Below, piece after piece: positions 1-12,076 of a stretch of DNA of 40,252 nucleotides. Under the pieces are notes generated by a model. It did not search any database and had not been told where the DNA came from. It worked only from the letters and a program-made list of their open reading frames with translations. The DNA lies in assembly GCA_003152875.1 (NCBI GenBank), contig PMBF01000034.1, positions 1-40,252 on the forward strand, given 5' to 3'. This DNA is from Ignavibacteriota bacterium. Its GTDB lineage: Bacteria; Bacteroidota; Ignavibacteria; UBA10030; UBA6906. Positions within the stretch are counted from its first letter, which is position 1; the number at the start of each line of letters is the position of its first letter. The translations under genes and the position numbers were made by a program.

Positions 1-1280
1 GAGACCGGATCGTAAAATCTCGGCACGAGATCGACCAGCGTCGATTTGCCCGCACCGCTCGGGCCGACGATGGCCACGACATCCCCTTTCCGTATGGAGA
101 GGTTCACATCTTCCAGGACCGTGTCCCCATCGGCGTACCGGAAGCTGACATGCTCGAAGGTGATCTCCGAGGCAAAGCCGTCGAGAACGACGGGATGAGC
201 GGCGTTCCTGATGTTCGGCCTGGTATCCAGGATCTCGAAGACCCTCTTGCCCGCCGCGGTCGCTTCCTGGAACCGGTTGTTGACGGTGCTAAGCTCCTTG
301 ATGGGGGGCATGAGCTGGAAGATCGCAAAGAGGAAACCGAGAAATTCGCTCGGTCTCATGGTGCCGTTTCCGAGGACCTGCATGCCGCCGTACCAGATGA
401 TCGCAGCGCCCGCAGCAGCGCTCAGGAACTCCGTGCTTGGCGAGGCGAGGTTGCGCACCCTGGTCACCTTGAGGATCGTGTCCAGCAGACGCTGTCCTTC
501 ACGAGCGAACTTCCGGTTTTCGAATTCCTCCATGCCGAACGCCTTCACGACCTTGACGCCGGTGATGGTCTCGTGCAGGACCGAAGTGAGGTCAGCCAGG
601 CTTTGCTGGATCAGTCCGCTCTCCAGGTGCACCCTCCTCCCGACCCCCGCGATAATCAGCAGCGCAAGCGGAAAGACGACGAAGGAGAGCAGGGTGAGCT
701 TCCAGCTGAGCGCCAGTGCGATGGTGAGGTAGACGAGGATGAGCAGCGGTTCGCGTACCATCGTGTGAAACGTCGCCGAGATCCCCGTGTTGATCACCGG
801 GACGTCGTTCATGACTCTCGAGATCAGGTTCCCCGTCCGCTCGTTGGAAAAGTAGCCCAGGGGCAGTTCATGGATATGCCGGTAGAGATCGTTGCGAAGA
901 TCGCGCACCAGGTGCTGCTCGACCGAGACCATGAGGTTGGACTGGAAGTACGCGGCGATGTTCTTGCAGAGGAAGGAGGCGATGATAACCGCGCAGATAT
1001 TGCGAAGCGATACGGATGGGTCGCTGCTGAAGATCACCATCTGGAACCACCCCGAAAGGGCGTCCTTGGCCGACGCCAGCCAGCCTGGAAGGAACGACGG
1101 GACCGAAGACACGGCGGCGGCCGCCTGCGCCGGGCCGTGGAACAGCGTCTCCAGCAGGGGGATCGTGAGGTAGATGGAGAACCCGCTGAAGATCGAAAAC
1201 AGCACCGAGCAGAGGACGGACAGGCCGAGCTGTCCCCCGTACGGCCTGACATACCTCATGACCCGCTGGTAGAGCTTCAT
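1..1280 (-). CDS. MsbA-like ABC exporter, membrane domain plus start of ATPase (partial)
   Basis: A half-size ABC exporter with fused membrane and ATPase domains, of the lipid A flippase (MsbA) type. About 426 codons are visible; the gene runs off the left edge before the ABC signature and Walker B. The start is the ATG at 1280, overlapping the glycosyltransferase stop in an ATGA arrangement. Residues 1-310 hold several hydrophobic segments in the type-1 exporter pattern. The nucleotide-binding domain follows, with an A-loop region (FRYADGD) near 375 and the Walker A motif GPSGAGKST at 406-414. The neighbours are a WaaE-like glycosyltransferase and, further away, other lipid A/core genes, so lipid A or LPS-core export across the inner membrane is the likely role. 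That substrate is inferred from context. It could be another lipid or drug exporter of the same fold. Confidence 0.88.
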   Translation of the reverse strand, partial: MKLYQRVMRYVRPYGGQLGLSVLCSVLFSIFSGFSIYLTIPLLETLFHGPAQAAAAVSSVPSFLPGWLASAKDALSGWFQMVIFSSDPSVSLRNICAVIIASFLCKNIAAYFQSNLMVSVEQHLVRDLRNDLYRHIHELPLGYFSNERTGNLISRVMNDVPVINTGISATFHTMVREPLLILVYLTIALALSWKLTLLSFVVFPLALLIIAGVGRRVHLESGLIQQSLADLTSVLHETITGVKVVKAFGMEEFENRKFAREGQRLLDTILKVTRVRNLASPSTEFLSAAAGAAIIWYGGMQVLGNGTMRPSEFLGFLFAIFQLMPPIKELSTVNNRFQEATAAGKRVFEILDTRPNIRNAAHPVVLDGFASEITFEHVSFRYADGDTVLEDVNLSIRKGDVVAIVGPSGAGKSTLVDLVPRFYDPV

Positions 1281-2098
1281 TGCCTGTGCTTCAGGAGACT
1301 GAGTTGGACATTCGTGATGGGAGGGAGCTTCCCTTCGCCTTCCCGCTCCCGCATCCGGTACTCCCAGAGCTTGGCGTACAGCAGCATCGTGTAGGCCGCA
1401 TCAAGAAGCGCAAGGACAAATCCCTGGAACCCGTCCCGGTAACCCTTGTGGACAATAAACATTCTCAGAAAATGCGAGAGGGGGCTCAGGACGAGCTTGT
1501 GCCATGGTGCTTGCGCGCCCGGATCGGCTGCCAGCTTATTCGACACCTGGAGCGACGTATAGTCGTTCATCTTCTCGACGTAGGAGTAGATGGTCGGATA
1601 CGTGTGGTGCAGGAGCAGCTCTTCCAGGCGTCCGGACCTACCGTCAGTCGTGAATCCGCCGTGCACCTCCTGGTGCTCCGGACGGTACCGGCTCTTGCGA
1701 AAGAGGCGGAACTGGTAGTCCGGAAACCAGCCTCCGTGTTCAATCCATCTGCCGAACGCATACGGCTTGCGCAGAATCCGGAACCCATCATTGCCTGTCC
1801 CCTCGCGCAGGACCGTCCGGATCGCCTCTGCCAGCGGCGGGGTGACCTCCTCGTCCGCGTCGATCACGAGAATCCAATCCCCCGTCGCGTACTCGATCCC
1901 CCGCTGGACCTGGCGGCTGGATCCGGGGTAGACGTGCTGGTAGACGCGCCCGGTGTACCGGCGTGCAAGCTCCGCCGTCCTGTCCCAGCTGAACGAGTCC
2001 ACGACGACGATCTCATCGGCCCAGCGGACGCTTTTCAGGCAGCGCTCGATGTTGGCTTCCTCATTCAGCGTGGTCAGGACAACTGAAATGCGTTCCAT
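1277..2098 (-). CDS. Family 2 glycosyltransferase, WaaE/KdtX-like
   Basis: A 273-residue GT-A fold glycosyltransferase, probably adding a sugar to the LPS inner core or another surface glycan on the cytoplasmic face of the inner membrane. The N-terminus begins with the GT2 signature ISVVLTTLNEEANI. The metal/nucleotide motif IDADEE is near residue 80, preceded by EIVVVDSFSWDRT and GDWILV. The middle part (WFPDYQFRLFRK, then EVHGGF) is typical of the WaaE/KdtX group that adds glucose to core heptose. The C-terminus has a hydrophobic stretch. It starts 4 bases after the leuS stop and overlaps the ABC exporter start by 4 bases, so it is translationally coupled. Donor and acceptor cannot be read from sequence. 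Confidence 0.88.
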   Translation of the reverse strand: MERISVVLTTLNEEANIERCLKSVRWADEIVVVDSFSWDRTAELARRYTGRVYQHVYPGSSRQVQRGIEYATGDWILVIDADEEVTPPLAEAIRTVLREGTGNDGFRILRKPYAFGRWIEHGGWFPDYQFRLFRKSRYRPEHQEVHGGFTTDGRSGRLEELLLHHTYPTIYSYVEKMNDYTSLQVSNKLAADPGAQAPWHKLVLSPLSHFLRMFIVHKGYRDGFQGFVLALLDAAYTMLLYAKLWEYRMREREGEGKLPPITNVQLSLLKHRQ

Positions 2099-2102
2099 CA
2101 GG

Positions 2103-4682
2103 CTATTGCACCACCAGGTTGACGAGCTTATTTTTTACCACGATCGCCTTGAGGACGTTCTTCCCGTCGATGTGCTTGCGCACCGCCTCATCGGCCCTGG
2201 CCCGGGCCTCGAGTTCGGCATCGGGCGCGTCGACGGCAACGCTGAGACGCGACCGGACCTTGCCGTTCACCTGGACGACCACTTCCACGGTTGACGCCTG
2301 GAGCATGGCGGCATCGAATTCCGGCCACGGCTCGTAGGTGATGGTCGACTCATGGCCCAGGGTCGACCACAGTTCCTCCGCCAGGTGGGGGGCAAACGGG
2401 GAAAGGAGTTTCACGAACGGTTCAAGGAGCCGGCGGGGCCTCTCCTCCTGCTGCATCACCGCGTTGACAAAAATCATCAGCTGGCTGATGGCAGTGTTGA
2501 ACCGCAGAGCCTCGATGTCCTCTCCTACCTTTTTCACGGTCGCATGAAACTCCCGCTCCAGCGCCGGGTCCGCAGGGCCGTCGGCGATCCGGGTGTCGGG
2601 TCTTCCCGTCTCATCGACGAACAGCCTCCAGCAGCGGTTCAGAAAGCGCCAGACCCCTTCGACGTTTCTCGTGCTCCAGGGCTTCATTTCTTCCAGCGGT
2701 CCCATGAACATTTCGAACAGCCGCACAGCGTCGGCCCCGTACTGGTTCACCACATCGTCGGGGTTCACCACGTTGCCGCGCGACTTGGACATCTTCCTGG
2801 AATCCTCGCCCAGGATGGTCCCCTGGTGGCGCAGTTTCATGAACGGTTCAGGGGTGCTGACGCAGCCGAGGTCGAACAGGACCTTGTGCCAGAACCTGGC
2901 GTACATCAGGTGGAGCACCGCATGTTCGGCGCCGCCCACGTAGAGGTCCACCGGCATCCACCGGCGCTCCAGGTCCGGGTCGCAGAAGGCGTCGCTGTTT
3001 TCCGGGTCAATGTAGCGCAGGTAGTACCAGCACGAGCCCGCCCACTGGGGCATGGTATTGGTTTCGCGGCGTCCCAGCAGTCCGGTTTTCCGGTCGACAA
3101 CGGTCACCCACTCCGTGGCAAGGGCCAGAGGGGACTCTGTGGTGCCGCTCGGCTGGAATTTCTTGAGATCCGGAAGCAGCAGGGGCAGCTCGGTCTCGGG
3201 AACGGGCTCCATCGTCCCATCTTCGAGGTGGACAATCGGGATCGGTTCTCCCCAGTAGCGCTGGCGTGCAAACAGCCAGTCACGCAATTTGTACTGGACG
3301 GCTGGACACCCGTGCCGGCTCTCCTTCAGCCAGGCGACGACCCGCTTTTTCGCCTCGGGAGTCGACAGGCCGTCGAGCGAGACCCCGGCATTTGAGGAGT
3401 TCACAGCGGTTCCATTGCCGGTGAAGGCGGCCCTGCTGACATCTCCGCCCGACACCACTTCGACGATCGGCAGGTGGAACTTCAGAGCGAACGCGTAATC
3501 CCGCTCATCGTGGGCGGGCACCGCCATGATCGCTCCTGTGCCGTACCCCATCAGGACATAATCGGCGATCCAGACCGGAATCTTCTCCGACGTGGCCGGA
3601 TTGACCACCCAGCCGCCGGTGAACACACCTGTCTTGTCGGAGTCGATGCCGCGCTCGACCTCGCTCTTGAGCCTGGCGCGAGAGCGGTATTCGTCGACTT
3701 CCGCGCGCTGGCCGGGTGCGGTGAGGAGATCCACCAGGGGGTGTTCCGGGGCCATCACCATGAAGGTGGCCCCGAAGATCGTATCAGGACATGTCGTGAA
3801 CACTCTCAACACCTCATCCCGGCCGTCAAGAGGGAAGTCGATCTCCGCCCCCTCGGAGCGCCCGATCCAGTTGCGCTGCTGCTCGAGCGTCGAGGATGGC
3901 CAGTTCAGTCCCCCGGCATCGCGCAGAAGGCGTTCGGCGTAGGCGGTGATGCGCATCATCCACTGCCTCATGGGCCGGCGTTCCACCGTGTAGCCCTTGC
4001 CGGTCCATTCCGCGACCTCCTCGTTGGCCAGCACAGTGCCAAGCGCCTCGCACCAGTTCACCGGGATCTCGGTCATGTATGCCAGGCGGTACTTCGCAAG
4101 GAAGTCGTGGCGCTTCTTCCGGCCGCAGGAGGACCACTCCGGCGCCGTCAGGGGATCGGCTCCCGGAATGCCGGCACTCCCCAGCTTTTCGAGCTCATCG
4201 ACAAGGGATTCGATCGGCCTGGCCCTGTCTTCGCGCGGATCATACCATGACCCGTACATTTTCAGGAAGATCCATTGCGTCCACCGGTAGTAGCCCGGAT
4301 CGGTGGTATTCACCTCACGTGACCAGTCGTAGCTCAGCCCCAGCATCCTGATCTGGCGGCGAAACGTCTCGATGTTCTTTTCGGTGGTGATCCGCGGGTG
4401 GATGTTGGTTTGCATGGCATAGCGTTCCGCCGGCAGGCCGAAGGCATCCCATCCCATCGGATGAAGAACGGAAATCCCCTTCATCCGGAGATAGCGGCAG
4501 AGGATGTCGGTGGCGGTATATCCCTCGGGATGTCCGACGTGCAGACCGGCCCCGCTCGGATAGGGAAACATGTCCAGGACGTAGCATTTCGGTCCCGCCG
4601 GACGCGTAGGGGTCCTGAAGGTCTGATGCTCTTCCCAGAACCGCTGCCACCTGGATTCAATGGCTTGGAATGGATACGCCAT
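2103..4682 (-). CDS. leuS: Leucyl-tRNA synthetase
   Basis: An 859-residue class Ia aminoacyl-tRNA synthetase that charges tRNA-Leu. The HIGH motif appears as HVGH at about residues 49-52, after the typical [13 protein letters not shown]. The CP1 editing domain (about 225-420) contains [12 protein letters not shown] and the editing-site Asp region [12 protein letters not shown]. The KMSKS loop is intact (KMSKSRGN) near residue 630. The anticodon-binding helical bundle and the C-terminal domain ([11 protein letters not shown]) are complete. Length is normal for bacterial LeuS. It is in an operon with the recombinase-fold gene upstream (14-base gap) and a glycosyltransferase downstream. No T-box or leader peptide is visible, as the gene is internal to an operon. 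Confidence 0.98.
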
Positions 4683-4696
4683 GACTCTGCTGTCAG

Positions 4697-5662
4697 TTAT
4701 TCCTTTGACGAAGGCTGCCCCGGAGCCCGCCCGGCCGGGGCATCGGACGGAGGGTGCTCCTCCTCCTGTTGATTGACGTACAGCATTGCCGTCACCACGC
4801 TGCCGAGCCTCATGCGCTGGCGAATCTCATCGGGAGACGCTCCCGCCCCTGCCATCATGAGCGCCGCCGTATGGCGCAGCGAATACGGCGTGATCTCCCG
4901 CATCCGTCCCTGCTTCACGCCAGCCCGATCGAGGTAGTGGTTCACACGCTCCCTCACGCCGCGCGTGGTCATCCGTTCGCCGCGTGTTCTGTTGCCGGCA
5001 CTCGCGAAGAGGGGGCTCCCGACGGGCCCCGGATCCCGGACGGTAAGGTACTGTTCGAGGACCTCCCGGACCTCCCGGGGGATCTGCACGACTGCGTCCT
5101 TCTCTTTCCGCCCCTTCCCCTGGACGCGGAGCGTGCTGCAGGGAAGGTCCAGTGACAGGTCGCCCACATCAGCGCGGACGATCTCAATCTCCGAGAGGCC
5201 GCACAAGAGCATGAGTTTGATGAACGCCAGATCGCGCAGCCCCATCTCGTCGACGGGATGTACAACCTCAAGCAGTGCGGCCACCTGCTCCGGTGAAAGG
5301 GCATGGCGGGTATGGCGGGCGGGCCTTCCCCCGCCCCCAACCCTCCGGGCCGGGTTCTCGCGAAGGACCTTGTGCACGATCAGGTAGTCGCAGAAGCGCC
5401 GCACTGATGTAAGATAGGTCGATACCGAAACCGGAGACAGACCCCTCTCCCCGAGAAGGTATGCGCGGTACCTGATGATGTCCCCCTCTTCGAAGCGGCA
5501 GCGGCGGTCCGACCTGCACCAGCGCACGAATTCGCGCAGGGCGCGTTCGTACGTCCCCCGCGTCTCCGGTGCGCCTCGCCGGAGGCTGCGCACAAATCCC
5601 TCATAGTGGCGGGACAGGGCGCCGGAGGAAAGACGGACCTTACCAGCTGGGCCGGAATGCAT
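4697..5662 (-). CDS. Tyrosine recombinase-fold protein with substituted catalytic residues
   Basis: A XerC/D-type architecture: an N-terminal SAM-like core-binding domain ([30 protein letters not shown]) and a C-terminal catalytic domain. XerD-like landmarks align well, but the first catalytic Arg (normally GLRxSEL) is Ser (CGLSEIEI, codon 5192-5194). The His of HxLRH is Tyr (PYSLRHT, codon 4883-4885), and the LGH(S/W) box reads RLGSVV with no His or Trp. The beta-hairpin Lys (GKGRKEK), second Arg and terminal Tyr (MLYVN) remain. The reading frame is intact, so this is not a simple pseudogene. I chose ATG 5662; an in-frame TTG at 5698 would add 12 residues, and neither has a good ribosome-binding site. 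It sits inside an operon of housekeeping genes rather than on a mobile element. It may bind DNA without recombining it, or be a very diverged Xer protein. Confidence 0.8.
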
Positions 5663-5765
5663 GAAGGCCGGATGAATGACGGACAGAGGAGATTGCAATA
5701 ACAGAATTTAGGAAGAACCCGCTGGAGAAGCAACATGGCACGTCACCCGGCGCGTACCGGCGGGG

Positions 5766-5849: not shown

Positions 5850-6257
5850 CTACCTGACACCAAGTGCCTGTCCGGCCTTCCCGGCATCCCCCGTTGCGAC
5901 CCGGATGATTGCTCCGAAGTTCCCCTTGACCGCGATGGCCTGGGTGGAGACAAGGTTGATGCCGGCATCAGCCAGCAAGGAGAGGCTCTTGAGGAGTACG
6001 CCCGTCTTGTCTTTCCCCTTCAGGAAAAACGCGGATCCCTCTTCAAAAGGTATGGTGGAGGACTTCAGGGCATCGCGCAGCTTGTCGGGGTTCCTGGGGA
6101 AGCACAGGGCTTCGGATTTCCCGGGTTCTGTGCCGGACGCTTCCACCCCGACCAGTCCGACGTTCCTCGATTTCAGATGCTTGCCGATTGCCAGCAGGGC
6201 GCCCGGCGCATCCTCGATGGTGATTTTGAAATAGGTCACGCGTTGTGCTTTAGCCAT
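5850..6257 (-). CDS. Stand-alone double-ACT domain protein
   Basis: A 135-residue cytoplasmic protein made only of two ACT-like repeats. The first starts at RVTYFKITIEDAPGALLAIG (about 6-70), the second at GSAFFLKGKDKTGVLLKSLS (about 75-135). ACT domains bind amino acids or other small ligands and usually regulate a partner; no partner enzyme is fused here. The start was placed at ATG 6257 because a GAGAGG ribosome-binding site lies just upstream. An in-frame upstream start at 6299 would add 14 residues overlapping the phosphatase stop. It follows the SpoIIE phosphatase by 38 bases and precedes the recombinase-fold gene and leuS. A link to amino acid sensing is possible, but the ligand cannot be read. 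Confidence 0.82.
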   Translation of the reverse strand: MAKAQRVTYFKITIEDAPGALLAIGKHLKSRNVGLVGVEASGTEPGKSEALCFPRNPDKLRDALKSSTIPFEEGSAFFLKGKDKTGVLLKSLSLLADAGINLVSTQAIAVKGNFGAIIRVATGDAGKAGQALGVR

Positions 6258-6295
6258 GACAGCCTCTCGGTATGGTGGCACGGACAGTGGAGAGT

Positions 6296-8089
6296 TCACC
6301 CAGACATTTTCAGCACCATCATCGTAATATCGTCGGACTGCGGCGCCCCGGTGGCGAACTCCAGAATCTGCCGGTGAACGGCATCAATGATGTCCGTCGA
6401 ACCCTCGCCGGCGTGCTCCCTCAGCACACGCTCGAGGCGCTCCTCGCCGAATTCCTCGGAATCCCTGCTCATGGCCTCGCTCACGCCGTCGGTGAACAGC
6501 ACAAGCATATCGCCCGGCACGAGGCTGATAGTCGCCTGTTCATAGGGAACGAGGGCCTGCATAATGCCGAGAATCATGCCCCCCTTCTCGAGCCGGTCCA
6601 CCGATCCGCCGGCATGGAACAGGTAGGGATAGTTGTGCCCGGCATTCACATAGGTCAGGGAGCAGTCCGCAGGGTTCACGCAGCCCCAGAAGAACGTGAC
6701 GAACTTGTTGCCGCCCGTGTTCTGGCACATGAGCTCGTTCACGCGTCCCGTGAGCTCGCTCAGAGGGAGGTTCAGTGGAACCAGGGCCCTGATGGTGGCC
6801 TGCAGGTTGGCCATCAACAGCGCGGCCGGGGTCCCTTTTCCCGACACATCCCCTATGGCAATAATGTAGCGGCCGTCCGGCATCGTGAGCACATCATAGT
6901 AGTCCCCTCCCACCTGTTTCGAGCTGATATTGGTTGCTGCAATATCGAGCCCGTCGATGCCGGGCAGGACGCTGGGGAGCAGCCCTTTCTGGATCTCCCG
7001 GGCGATCATCAGCTCGTTTTCGAGCTTCTGTTTCTCGAGTGTTTCCTTAAAGAGTCGGGCGTTCTCCAGCGATATAATGGCAAGGTTTGCAAGGGACGCA
7101 AGGAATTCCAGATCGGCCTGGAGGTAGGGCTGTCTGTCGAGCTTCTCGCCAAGGACCATCAGCCCGCGTGTTTCACCCTGGAGCTGCATGGGAACGATCA
7201 CACTGAGACCCAGGGACTTCAGGACGGGACGCGGATCGACGAAACCGCGCACGGTGTAGTCCTCGACCAGCGTCGGCCCCTTGATCCGCCCAAGTTCCGC
7301 CAGCAGTTCCCCCTGAGGAGTTCCCGCATCGGTACGTGCGGCCGCGATTCTCATGTCCGCCCCGTCCTTCAGTGCGATCAGATAGCGGTTGACACCCACC
7401 TGGCCGAGCAGGGAGAACACCAGCAGGCGGATGAGCTTTTCCGGGTCCAGGAGGGCGCCAAATTCCTTCCCGAGATCGAAGAGCGTATTGAGCTCCTGGA
7501 TTTTCCTGTCGAGCTTCCGGTTGACAAGCTGCAGCTCGGCGATGGTCCGGCTCTTCTCGATTGCCGTGGCGGAGATATTGGCCAGAGACCGCAGATAGGT
7601 TTTTTCCCGGGACAGGAGCGTCCGGTTGGAGAACCGGTCGCCGAAGCCCAGTGTACCGATCGGTTTGTCGGCGATGAGCAAAGGCAGGAGGATCTTCACG
7701 CCCTGTGAGAGAAAGAACTCCGTCCAGGGGTGCCGCCCGGGATCGAGCTCCTCCAGAAAGGTCAGGGAGCGCGGCATCCTGGGGATGGCGAGGCGGCGAC
7801 CCTGAAGGGATGCCTCAAATCCCTTGACCTTCTCCACCACGTACTCCTTCCTCCCTGCGGCGTCGGCCACGAGCACGATGCCTCGCGTGGAGAGGAGCTT
7901 CCCCATGATGGTGAGGAGAATATGGCTGTAGATGAAATCCGGTTCGAGGGAAGAGTTGATTACCGTGCTGAACTCGAACAGCGCGGCATTGTCAAAATGG
8001 CTCTCATAGGAGTCGGGATCGTTCGGCAATGCGGGGGACAATCGGCGGGGCATTTCAATTGGCGAGGAATTTGATGAGCCGCACTTCAT
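6296..8089 (-). CDS. GAF-domain SpoIIE/RsbU-type serine phosphatase
   Basis: A 597-residue soluble PP2C-like phosphatase with two sensory regions. Residues about 30-185 and 200-345 form GAF-like domains joined by a helix, and a coiled linker (KQKLENELMIAREIQKGLLP) precedes the catalytic domain at about 370-595. Metal-binding motifs are intact: VGGDYYD near 391, GDVSGKG near 412, AGHNYPY, FTDGVSEA near 535, and the final DDITMMVL near 588. In partner-switching systems such enzymes dephosphorylate an RsbV-like STAS protein. Here the STAS and RsbW-like genes lie directly upstream. The start could be 8089 (overlapping the kinase gene by 35 bases) or ATG 8053, one base after the kinase stop and well placed for coupled translation. 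No transmembrane segment is seen. Confidence 0.92.
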   Translation of the reverse strand: MKCGSSNSSPIEMPRRLSPALPNDPDSYESHFDNAALFEFSTVINSSLEPDFIYSHILLTIMGKLLSTRGIVLVADAAGRKEYVVEKVKGFEASLQGRRLAIPRMPRSLTFLEELDPGRHPWTEFFLSQGVKILLPLLIADKPIGTLGFGDRFSNRTLLSREKTYLRSLANISATAIEKSRTIAELQLVNRKLDRKIQELNTLFDLGKEFGALLDPEKLIRLLVFSLLGQVGVNRYLIALKDGADMRIAAARTDAGTPQGELLAELGRIKGPTLVEDYTVRGFVDPRPVLKSLGLSVIVPMQLQGETRGLMVLGEKLDRQPYLQADLEFLASLANLAIISLENARLFKETLEKQKLENELMIAREIQKGLLPSVLPGIDGLDIAATNISSKQVGGDYYDVLTMPDGRYIIAIGDVSGKGTPAALLMANLQATIRALVPLNLPLSELTGRVNELMCQNTGGNKFVTFFWGCVNPADCSLTYVNAGHNYPYLFHAGGSVDRLEKGGMILGIMQALVPYEQATISLVPGDMLVLFTDGVSEAMSRDSEEFGEERLERVLREHAGEGSTDIIDAVHRQILEFATGAPQSDDITMMVLKMSG

Positions 8090-8474
8090 TCATCTTGCCT
8101 GGTTTGATCTCGTACTCCACTTTGTCCATCAACGAACGCATCAGGTAGACACCGAGGCCCCCGCGGCGGAAGTGGGTCATGTACTCCTTCATGTCTGGTT
8201 GGTGGATGCGGCCGGGATCGAAGGCATTGCCATTATCCCTGATCCGTATCTCGAACGTACCATTGGCTGCATGGACCGTGATGGCGATTTTCTTCGTCGG
8301 GTCGAACCTGTAGGCATGTTTGATCACGTTCGTACATGCTTCATCGACCGCTAGCGCGATCTTCCCCACGTCTTCCTCCGAGAAGCCGAAGGTCCTCGCC
8401 GCTTCCGAGACGAACTCGCGAACGGCGCTCAGGCGCTCTGTCCGGCTTTCGATATGGATGGTCTCTGTCTTCAC
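8055..8474 (-). CDS. RsbW-like anti-sigma factor / serine kinase (GHKL ATPase)
   Basis: A 139-residue single-domain HATPase_c_2 protein. The N box DEACTNVIKHAY is at residues 44-55 with E45 and N49. The G1 box RIRDNGNAFDP is near 78-87, and the G2/lid region RRGGLGVYLMRSLMD is near 112-126. Members of this family phosphorylate an STAS antagonist and sequester a sigma factor or other target. It lies 21 bases after the STAS gene and overlaps or abuts the SpoIIE phosphatase gene, giving a full antagonist-kinase-phosphatase cassette. No sigma factor gene is present in the window, so the output partner is unknown. Confidence 0.9.
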   Translation of the reverse strand: MKTETIHIESRTERLSAVREFVSEAARTFGFSEEDVGKIALAVDEACTNVIKHAYRFDPTKKIAITVHAANGTFEIRIRDNGNAFDPGRIHQPDMKEYMTHFRRGGLGVYLMRSLMDKVEYEIKPGKMNEVRLIKFLAN

Positions 8475-8495
8475 AGGAGTTGACCAGATCCCCGA

Positions 8496-8873
8496 TTACT
8501 GGAGAGTGGACGAGGGGTTCTTCGACTTGTCGAAAAACCTCGTAATTGCGTCTTGTTCTTCTTTGAAAATCTCATAAAGAAGCGGGAAGCCGAGAAGATC
8601 AAACACGTTATAGACTTTTGGCGACATGTTCGTCAGCTTGATGTCACCGCTGTGTTTGCGAACATCCTCGATAAACGCCATGAAGACACCCAGCCCCGCA
8701 CTACTTATATACGAGAGATCCTTGCAGTTTACCACAATGTTATAGCGGGAGCTCCCCAGGAGGTTTTGGAGGGCTTCCTCCAGTTTGGGGGCCGTGTGTG
8801 CGTCCAGGTAGCCCTTGAGCTCCAGAATATGGACGCTGTTCTGCTCCCGCAGGCCGATTTTGAAGTCACTCAT
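8496..8873 (-). CDS. STAS-domain anti-anti-sigma factor, RsbV/SpoIIAA-like
   Basis: A 125-residue STAS protein. It has the usual pattern: beta strands at the start (VHILELKGYLD), a helix APKLEEALQNLL, a strand NIVVNCKDLSYIS, and the phospho-acceptor loop SSAGLGVF with Ser57/Ser58. In the family, dephosphorylated STAS binds the RsbW-type kinase and frees its target. The C-terminal tail past residue 110 (FFDKSKNPSSTLQ) is longer than a minimal STAS domain. It lies 28 bases after the membrane phosphatase gene and 21 bases before the kinase gene. Confidence 0.9.
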   Translation of the reverse strand: MSDFKIGLREQNSVHILELKGYLDAHTAPKLEEALQNLLGSSRYNIVVNCKDLSYISSAGLGVFMAFIEDVRKHSGDIKLTNMSPKVYNVFDLLGFPLLYEIFKEEQDAITRFFDKSKNPSSTLQ

Positions 8874-8901
8874 GTAAGGCTCCTTTGAAAAACCGACGTT
8901 G

Positions 8902-11022
8902 CTACGCGTTCAGCTCTCTTCCCCGGTCCCCATGCCATTTAAGGACCACAAGGGTAATATCGTCTTCGTTCGCCCGCTCTTCGACAAACCTCCGCACCGA
9001 AGAGAGCACCTCTTCCTTGATTCCGTCTGCAGTCAGGTGCTTCGCGCCGCGGGTGCATTCGAGAAGCCTGTCGTACCCGAATTCGTCTTCGCCGCACCGC
9101 GCCTCCGTGATCCCGTCGGTGTAGAAAACGCAGACATCCCCTTCCCGCAATTCCACGTTCTGTTCCTGGAGAGATTTTGCGAACAGCGCATCGCCGCTCA
9201 GCCCCAGGCCCATTCCGCCGGGTCGGATATAGGAGACCTTTTCGGCCGAGACCAGGAGCATGGGACAGTGCCCCGCCCGCGCGATGGTGAGGCCGCCAGT
9301 ACGGACGTCGAGTATCGCGAACAGGAGGCTGATGAAGGAATGCCGGTCGACGGTCCCCATCAGGACCTCATTGGCCCGGACCAGAAAGTCGCGTGGCGAG
9401 GGGTACATCCTGCTCAGCGACTGGAAGATGCCTTTCACCTCGGACATATAGAAGGCGGCGGGCACGCCTTTCCCCGACACATCGCCGACGACGATGCCCA
9501 GGCGGCCGTCGTCGAGTGCCACAAAGTCATAGTAATCCCCCCCCACCTCGAAGGCGGGAGTGGAGACAGCGGCAATCTCCAGCGTCGCATACACCGGCAC
9601 CGACTGCGGAAGAAGCTTCCGCTGCATTTCCTGAGCGAGCATCATCTCGCGGATGAGGCGCTCGCGCTCGATCGATTCGTTGATCAGCCGGGAGTTCTCG
9701 ATGGCGACCGTCGCCTGGTCAGCAAAGGCCGAGATCACGTCCACATCGTCCTTGAGGAATCCGTACGAGGTGTCTTTTGTGGCATACAGAATTCCCACCA
9801 GCGCGTTGTGCGACACGAGCGGCATCACCACGATGGACGCGATGGAGCTTTTCGCCTTCTTCAGGTGGAGGAACCGCGGCTCGCGCAGGATATCGTCGAT
9901 CACGAGCGGTGTACGGCGCCTGATGACTTCGTCACGCAGGCTTTCCCCTTCCGCCTGATGCAGCTGCTCGATCTCCGCCGGCGCGATGTGCTTCATGGCC
10001 ACCACGCGGACCGACGACGGAACGACAGACCCGGCGGCGCCTGAGGGCTGATCGCCGCGCACGAGCTCCAGCCAGCAGCTTTTCGCCTCGCACACCTGCA
10101 GGGTCATCGCCGTGACCGTATCCACCAACTCGTTGAAGTCGAACACCTGCGTGATCAGACGTCCCAGGTTGTGGAGCGAGGTCACTTCGGAGCGTTTCCG
10201 GTCAAATGCCTCGGCCGTCGGCAGGTGAAACAGCGTGCTGACGAATGCCATGCCGGCATAGATATTGCCGAAGATGGCCGTCAGCGTGGCGACTTCCGTC
10301 AGGGGATACGAATAGTACAGCAATGCTTCCCGGAGAGACCCTTCACGGGCGAGCATGACGTTGAGCGCGGTGTAGGCAAAGAACAGGAGCAGGCTGTACA
10401 CAAGGGTGTACACCTTTTCGCGCTTCGTGAGGTAGACGATCCACGGAAGCCGGAACGCGTTGATGATTGCCAGGATGACCGCAATGATGAAGAAGATCGT
10501 GGTAGCGGCCGAATCCTGGAGCGGCCGCAGCATCAGCACGGAAGCCCCCGTTGCAGCGATGGCGACACCGAGCAGGAGGAAGTTCCGCTGGGTCCCCTTG
10601 CGGCGCTGAAAGAGGACCAGGTCGCGCAAAAGGCGTATGGCCAGGACGGAGAAGAGGCCCAGCATGACGCTGCTGACCGAAGCGAGGAACAGCGTCGGAT
10701 AATCGAGAGGAAGCAGCGAGAAGTTCTTCCGGTCGAATCCCGCCACCGACGTCAGGCCGAACCCGATGCTGGCGATGAGAACTCCGTACGTCACGATCAG
10801 GAGCACGCCGAGGCGTCTGACCGGAGCATGCTCGCGCCGTCCCATCGCCGTCGAAAACGCAAGGTACAACAGGAGGAAAGCCCCGATAACCGAGAGCTCG
10901 CGCAGAAGGCTGACCCCGCCGGTCTCCAGCACCACGTTCTTGCTGATCACGTCGATCGTGAACTTGATCAGCAGCAACAGGAACGCACCACCGATATAGA
11001 AGAACCGACGCAGCTTGATCAC
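8902..11022 (-). CDS. Membrane-anchored GAF-SpoIIE phosphatase
   Basis: A 706-residue sensor phosphatase starting at GTG 11022; a stop lies five codons upstream in frame, so the start is tightly bounded. About eight hydrophobic helices fill residues 8-260. A GAF domain follows (about 280-450, DFNELVDTVTAMTLQVCEAK onwards). A linker with EMMLAQEMQRKLLP leads to the PP2C domain (about 470-700) with VGGDYYDF, GDVSGKGVPAAF, RAGHCPML, FYTDGITEAR and DDITLVVLKW all present. It probably senses a membrane or extracellular cue and dephosphorylates the STAS protein encoded just downstream. It is the second SpoIIE phosphatase of the cassette, so two inputs appear to feed one STAS/kinase pair. The 245-base gap upstream holds no gene; no convincing promoter was recognised there. 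Confidence 0.92.
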   Translation of the reverse strand: MIKLRRFFYIGGAFLLLLIKFTIDVISKNVVLETGGVSLLRELSVIGAFLLLYLAFSTAMGRREHAPVRRLGVLLIVTYGVLIASIGFGLTSVAGFDRKNFSLLPLDYPTLFLASVSSVMLGLFSVLAIRLLRDLVLFQRRKGTQRNFLLLGVAIAATGASVLMLRPLQDSAATTIFFIIAVILAIINAFRLPWIVYLTKREKVYTLVYSLLLFFAYTALNVMLAREGSLREALLYYSYPLTEVATLTAIFGNIYAGMAFVSTLFHLPTAEAFDRKRSEVTSLHNLGRLITQVFDFNELVDTVTAMTLQVCEAKSCWLELVRGDQPSGAAGSVVPSSVRVVAMKHIAPAEIEQLHQAEGESLRDEVIRRRTPLVIDDILREPRFLHLKKAKSSIASIVVMPLVSHNALVGILYATKDTSYGFLKDDVDVISAFADQATVAIENSRLINESIERERLIREMMLAQEMQRKLLPQSVPVYATLEIAAVSTPAFEVGGDYYDFVALDDGRLGIVVGDVSGKGVPAAFYMSEVKGIFQSLSRMYPSPRDFLVRANEVLMGTVDRHSFISLLFAILDVRTGGLTIARAGHCPMLLVSAEKVSYIRPGGMGLGLSGDALFAKSLQEQNVELREGDVCVFYTDGITEARCGEDEFGYDRLLECTRGAKHLTADGIKEEVLSSVRRFVEERANEDDITLVVLKWHGDRGRELNA

Positions 11023-12002: not shown

Positions 12003-12076
<74 letters not shown>

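Follow-up and report, generated by a model that had tools for sequence, protein, structure and literature searches.

In the 40,252-nucleotide stretch of Ignavibacteriota DNA analysed here (the window), a gene that resembles a tyrosine recombinase, with several catalytic residues replaced, stands directly in front of leuS. We asked whether this gene is genuine, from which recombinases it descends, and what its product might still do with an active site of this kind.

An open frame with a non-canonical active site

The window gene occupies positions 4697..5662 of the minus strand and encodes 321 amino acids from an ATG at 5662; a TTG at 5698 is a possible start that would give 333 codons. Pfam analysis matched the catalytic domain to PF00589 (Phage_integrase, E 1.8e-20), preceded by the SAM-like N-terminal core-binding domain PF02899 (E 1.2e-7). 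An AlphaFold2 model built from 20 orthologues (mean pLDDT 89.5) predicted a recombinase fold with confidence, and its top structural matches in Foldseek were XerA, Cre, the integron integrase IntI4 and XerH. Domains and model place the window gene within the tyrosine recombinase superfamily by fold, as the initial annotation had proposed for this open frame of more than 320 codons.

Codon reading combined with alignment was used to assign the six catalytic positions, all on the minus strand. Three were kept, namely the beta-hairpin lysine Lys183 (5114..5116), Arg263 at ArgII (4874..4876) and Tyr295 at the position of the nucleophile (4778..4780). At the other three, ArgI is replaced by Ser157 (TCG, 5192..5194), HisII by Tyr260 (TAT, 4883..4885), and the third position, HisIII/Trp, by Leu286 (CTC, 4805..4807). 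The resulting set, S-K-Y-R-L-Y against the canonical R-K-H-R-H/W-Y, is not that of a catalytically competent recombinase. The replacements and retentions first noticed were confirmed in the codons, and there was no frameshift or sequencing error at 4883-4885 or 5192-5194.

A profile search recovered orthologues, 39-62% identical to the window protein, in 37 of the 98 genomes of its own order, while scanning the genome contigs with the single window sequence as query returned one distant recombinase only. Alignment of the catalytic positions in orthologues, which the initial annotation had recommended, revealed that the replacements recur. Arginine occupies the ArgI position in 7/7 plasmid-type and 6/6 Xer-type sequences but in 0/26 same-order orthologues, each of which has three or four of the six catalytic residues intact and never more. 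The full R-K-H-R-H-Y set was found in none of these 26 and in none of 48 other chromosomal clade members inspected. Since orthologues carry the same replacements at the same place, the altered active site goes beyond chance. Comparison of 11 pairs gave dN/dS values of 0.03-0.21, indicating purifying selection, and these values together with the orthologues rule out a sequencing error or a pseudogene. The proposal of a conserved, intact gene was therefore borne out. A functionless integrase remnant undergoing ordinary decay would explain the loss of catalytic residues and the repeated loss of the gene itself. However, it would not explain purifying selection, frames kept open and motifs left unchanged in many genera, or a spread over several classes; because of the purifying selection we regard decay as refuted, with only a marginal probability left to it.

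Origin among plasmid-type recombinases and spread through the phylum

The initial annotation took the gene for a descendant of Xer, and this part of the proposal did not hold. The window protein scored 107 bits against the NCBIfam XerC model (cut-off 335) and 99 bits against the XerD model (cut-off 330), below both equivalog thresholds, and NCBIfam and PHROGs otherwise returned general recombinase families only. A search of plasmid proteins identified small recombinases of Streptococcus, Staphylococcus, Limosilactobacillus, Tenacibaculum and Flavobacterium at 29-34% identity. In a maximum likelihood tree (LG+F+R4, ultrafast bootstrap), the degenerate chromosomal sequences formed one clade with bootstrap 100. 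Its sister group was the plasmid-borne simple tyrosine recombinases (S. thermophilus pSMQ308 WP_011161220, L. reuteri pLRI05 and those of Tenacibaculum and Flavobacterium plasmids), which separate the window gene from the Xer-type sequences outside. Like the members of the clade, these plasmid recombinases consist of two domains, and they carry both clade insertions (beta-hairpin and pre-helix), but they retain the full R-K-H-R-H-Y set (7/7), are plasmid-borne, and have Asn in place of Arg225. Tree and family scores rule out descent from XerC/D proper; the topology implies that the window gene derives instead from a plasmid-type subfamily with which it shares two insertions. Clade genes that general models label XerC/XerD or integrase are probably neither.

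XerC and XerD have the same fold as the window protein, at about 25% identity, but they have complete active sites and occupy a separate branch of the tree. The search for a second, canonical Xer gene in the same genome found two paralogues, L001 and L002, with the full R-K-H-R-H-Y set. The shared fold and the presence of these paralogues could suggest a non-catalytic partner of canonical Xer that joins the synapse or competes for dif-like sites, thereby tuning chromosome dimer resolution. We consider such a partner improbable, as the origin is of plasmid type rather than XerC/D and families without the window gene still keep Xer. Moreover, the tail after the tyrosine, which in XerC/XerD carries the partner contact, is often missing (11 residues or fewer after Tyr295 in 18 of 26 orthologues). 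In streptococci, an XerD-like protein with the Xer fold is encoded in a housekeeping operon and is said not to act at dif; it belongs to another phylum and another neighbourhood than the window gene.

When the whole phylum was searched with the profile, 85 of 395 genomes, belonging to several families and classes, each held a single match at E below 1e-40; a class-level search brought in f61 and further families. Ordinary Xer-type proteins reach about 110-116 bits with the clade profile. The lowest-scoring tail of the matches is mixed, since L181 and L164, at about 143 and 152 bits, are active-type recombinases. Among 49 further chromosomal sequences that were read, only L181 had the full catalytic set. 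Ser stood at ArgI in 35 of the 49, the nucleophilic tyrosine was absent in eight, and a second branch had lost ArgII (Thr in 16/49) with both histidines kept. Three clade members were SKHRHY, that is, without ArgI only. Individual sequences departed further: L152 (genome G134) is a degenerate member with Arg again at the ArgI position and Gln at ArgII, and L146, L148, L159-L161 and L165 have lost the tyrosine or most catalytic residues and kept Arg225 and Arg234. Viral homologues were sought as well and rejected, as a viral-contig scan with the clade alignment returned none and phage records gave distant matches only, at about 25-32% identity. Searching the literature turned up no account of the family, which appears to be undescribed. 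The clade is old and widespread, with active plasmid sisters available for comparison; few cases are on record of bacterial chromosomes in which an inactive recombinase has been taken over for a host function.

Arginines kept, catalytic residues lost

Codons 224-237 (4952..4993, minus strand) encode a clade-specific loop and, by alignment to alpha-K of XerH, a predicted recognition helix. Across the clade, the arginines at positions 225, 230, 234 and 237 of this segment were conserved at 92-97%, against 35% for HisII, 35% for HisIII and 68% for ArgII. Arg234 was almost invariant and Arg237 was present in most of the clade; both align to the helix that corresponds to alpha-K of XerH (residues 285-299), an element inserted into the major groove (PMC5241119). 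Arg225 was found in 26 of 26 same-order and 44 of 49 further sequences, with Asn in six of seven plasmid-type relatives, and position 283 was basic in 92% of the clade and in none of eight active relatives. Judged by the alignment, Arg225 and Arg283 were acquired by the clade, in which arginines at predicted DNA-contact positions were retained or added as the catalytic positions drifted. Catalytic loss, arginine conservation and the short tail together fit a loss of strand exchange with DNA recognition retained, probably in changed form. In this clade one can see which residues of a recombinase can be given up when the predicted DNA-contact residues, assigned here through XerH, remain fixed.

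We favour, at a probability of roughly 60%, domestication on the chromosome: a protein with the tyrosine-recombinase fold that no longer recombines, most likely binds DNA and is probably regulatory or architectural. This reading is favoured because no clade member inspected has the full catalytic set and because the sister clade is active; the dN/dS values, the arginine pattern, the fold model, the short tail and the housekeeping surroundings favour it as well. The gene combines an origin next to an active clade, a lost catalytic set and purifying selection, as a domesticated inactive recombinase should. Of the non-recombining DNA-binding protein first proposed, the non-canonical active site and the intact, conserved gene were upheld, and DNA binding is probable from sequence comparison. 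As the phylogeny shows, a plasmid-type lineage with a full active site gave rise to a chromosomal lineage in which ArgI was lost, mostly to Ser. That lineage is found in several classes, as a rule with one copy per genome and under purifying selection, and its branches then shed different further catalytic residues. The two-domain clamp would still close on DNA without strand exchange and may read its site through Arg225, 230, 234 and 237 of the C-terminal domain together with conserved N-terminal helices.

A precedent for the use of an inactive recombinase in DNA recognition is TnsF of Tn6022-like transposons, an inactivated tyrosine recombinase that serves DNA/target recognition and arose from an active ancestor (PMC10293859), so by analogy the mode of the window family would be that of a domesticated inactive recombinase. 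TnsF is transposon-borne, carries zinc fingers and acts in target selection, whereas the window protein is two-domain and chromosomal. In the IntDes subgroup of Desulfovibrio, ArgI is shifted and Tyr takes the place of HisII (PMC8138268); unlike the window family, the subgroup has an arm-binding domain and is confined to one genus. In some CTnDOT-type integrases ArgI is missing, an alternative arginine is used, and the enzymes are active (PMC8138268). The IntCTnDOT subgroup has an arm-binding domain and keeps its other catalytic residues, whereas in the window gene HisII and HisIII are replaced; candidate alternative arginines do exist, by sequence position, in the clade-specific Arg225 and Arg283. 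The window family is distinguished from all three systems by its simple two-domain plan, its chromosomal and as a rule single-copy state, and a different and larger loss of residues.

Several observations stand against a non-recombining protein. In the window gene's own order Lys183, Arg263 and Tyr295 are almost invariant (Tyr295 in 26/26 and Lys183 in 25/26 orthologues), although pure DNA binding does not need them. The SKHRHY members, like active CTnDOT-type integrases, lack ArgI only, the scan for a target site was negative, and the gene has been lost in several lineages. The active site might instead have been rebuilt, with Arg283 or Arg225 standing in for ArgI and Lys183, Arg263 and Tyr295 supplying the chemistry for nicking and closing, or for slow recombination, at a site in the chromosome. 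Both arginines were gained when ArgI was lost, and the CTnDOT precedent agrees with this, but it is mainly the near-invariance of Tyr295 and Lys183, unexplained by DNA binding, that keeps a still-cleaving enzyme alive. HisII, HisIII, ArgII and even the tyrosine have each been lost in some clade branch, the window gene itself has neither histidine, and the C-terminal tail is shortened in many members; we therefore judge a rebuilt active site unlikely. Less likely again is a phylum-wide domesticated plasmid recombinase, rebuilt on Arg225/Arg283 with its tyrosine kept, that would cleave DNA or grip its site in a chromosomal function coupled to leuS expression in one class.

A ribosome-bound recombinase, hinted at by chain 14 of PDB entry 9i5v, was also considered and provides no evidence for the window family, since the motifs are ordinary catalytic ones and the chain is named RaiA. 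The chain, of 401 residues, matches a canonical Xer-type recombinase over residues 20-281, so that recombinase and RaiA appear to be fused in the sequence as deposited.

The leuS neighbourhood

On the same strand, the window gene is followed by leuS (leucyl-tRNA synthetase, 2103..4682) and a family 2 glycosyltransferase gene (1277..2098), and is preceded by an ACT-domain gene (5850..6299) and a partner-switching cluster of SpoIIE phosphatase, RsbW-like kinase, STAS and SpoIIE genes (6296..11022) that is conserved in its own family. These are chromosomal housekeeping surroundings, in keeping with the view that the gene does not sit in a mobile element. Placement between ACT and leuS genes was correct for the window, but the ACT neighbour is absent from the other loci examined, where the order is SpoIIE-recombinase-leuS. 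The ACT-domain gene, which overlaps the end of the SpoIIE gene, occurred between SpoIIE and recombinase in none of 27 relative loci.

At every retrieved locus whose length allowed the pairing to be seen, the recombinase gene lay immediately 5' of leuS. These loci came from families f1 and f5 of its own order and f10 and f61 of the same class, and in most of them the same glycosyltransferase came after leuS. Orthologues beside leuS, as first suggested, do recur in the window gene's class. In other classes the gene adjoins unrelated genes, for example those read from sequence as 2-oxo-acid dehydrogenase acyltransferase and N-acetylmuramoyl-L-alanine amidase. These differing neighbours rule out a leuS-specific role for the whole family and make the link at most a feature of one class. 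The deep conservation of the recombinase-leuS pair within that class might point to action on RNA or protein, for instance control of leuS translation or association with LeuS itself. We hold such a role to be very unlikely: the linkage does not extend beyond the class, and the conserved arginines stand where the recombinase fold contacts duplex DNA. For the non-recombining DNA-binding protein, binding near its own promoter could mean that in this class it regulates the recombinase-leuS-glycosyltransferase unit or acts on it as an architectural protein; regulation is the weakest step of our proposal. By inspection, no convincing conserved palindrome or dif-like site was seen near the gene, promoter and terminator scans gave no more than chance, and Rfam detected no element near leuS. 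The sole Rfam match in the window was a tRNA gene (12003..12076, minus strand). No 16S rRNA was found in the assembly; the 76 type IX secretion tails encoded by this genome suggest that it belongs to Bacteroidota or a neighbouring lineage.

In the LeuS tree, in which some deep nodes are weak, bearers of the gene (f61, f10 and part of f5) fell outside the gene-less families f2, f3 and f6, and in some f1 members that lack the gene SpoIIE is followed directly by leuS. The tree is read most simply as a gene present in the ancestor and lost repeatedly since; lineages can do without it over long periods. LeuS of f10 and f61 (L174, L175, L182, L162 and L163) shares only about 43% identity with the window's LeuS, compared with 60% or more within the own order. 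Possibly LeuS was replaced in place or evolved fast in these families, which retain the recombinase-leuS-glycosyltransferase order despite the divergence. One assembly (G005) carries the SpoIIE-recombinase-leuS cluster twice in diverged form (L040 on C83 and L041 on C150), reflecting either duplication or mixed strains.
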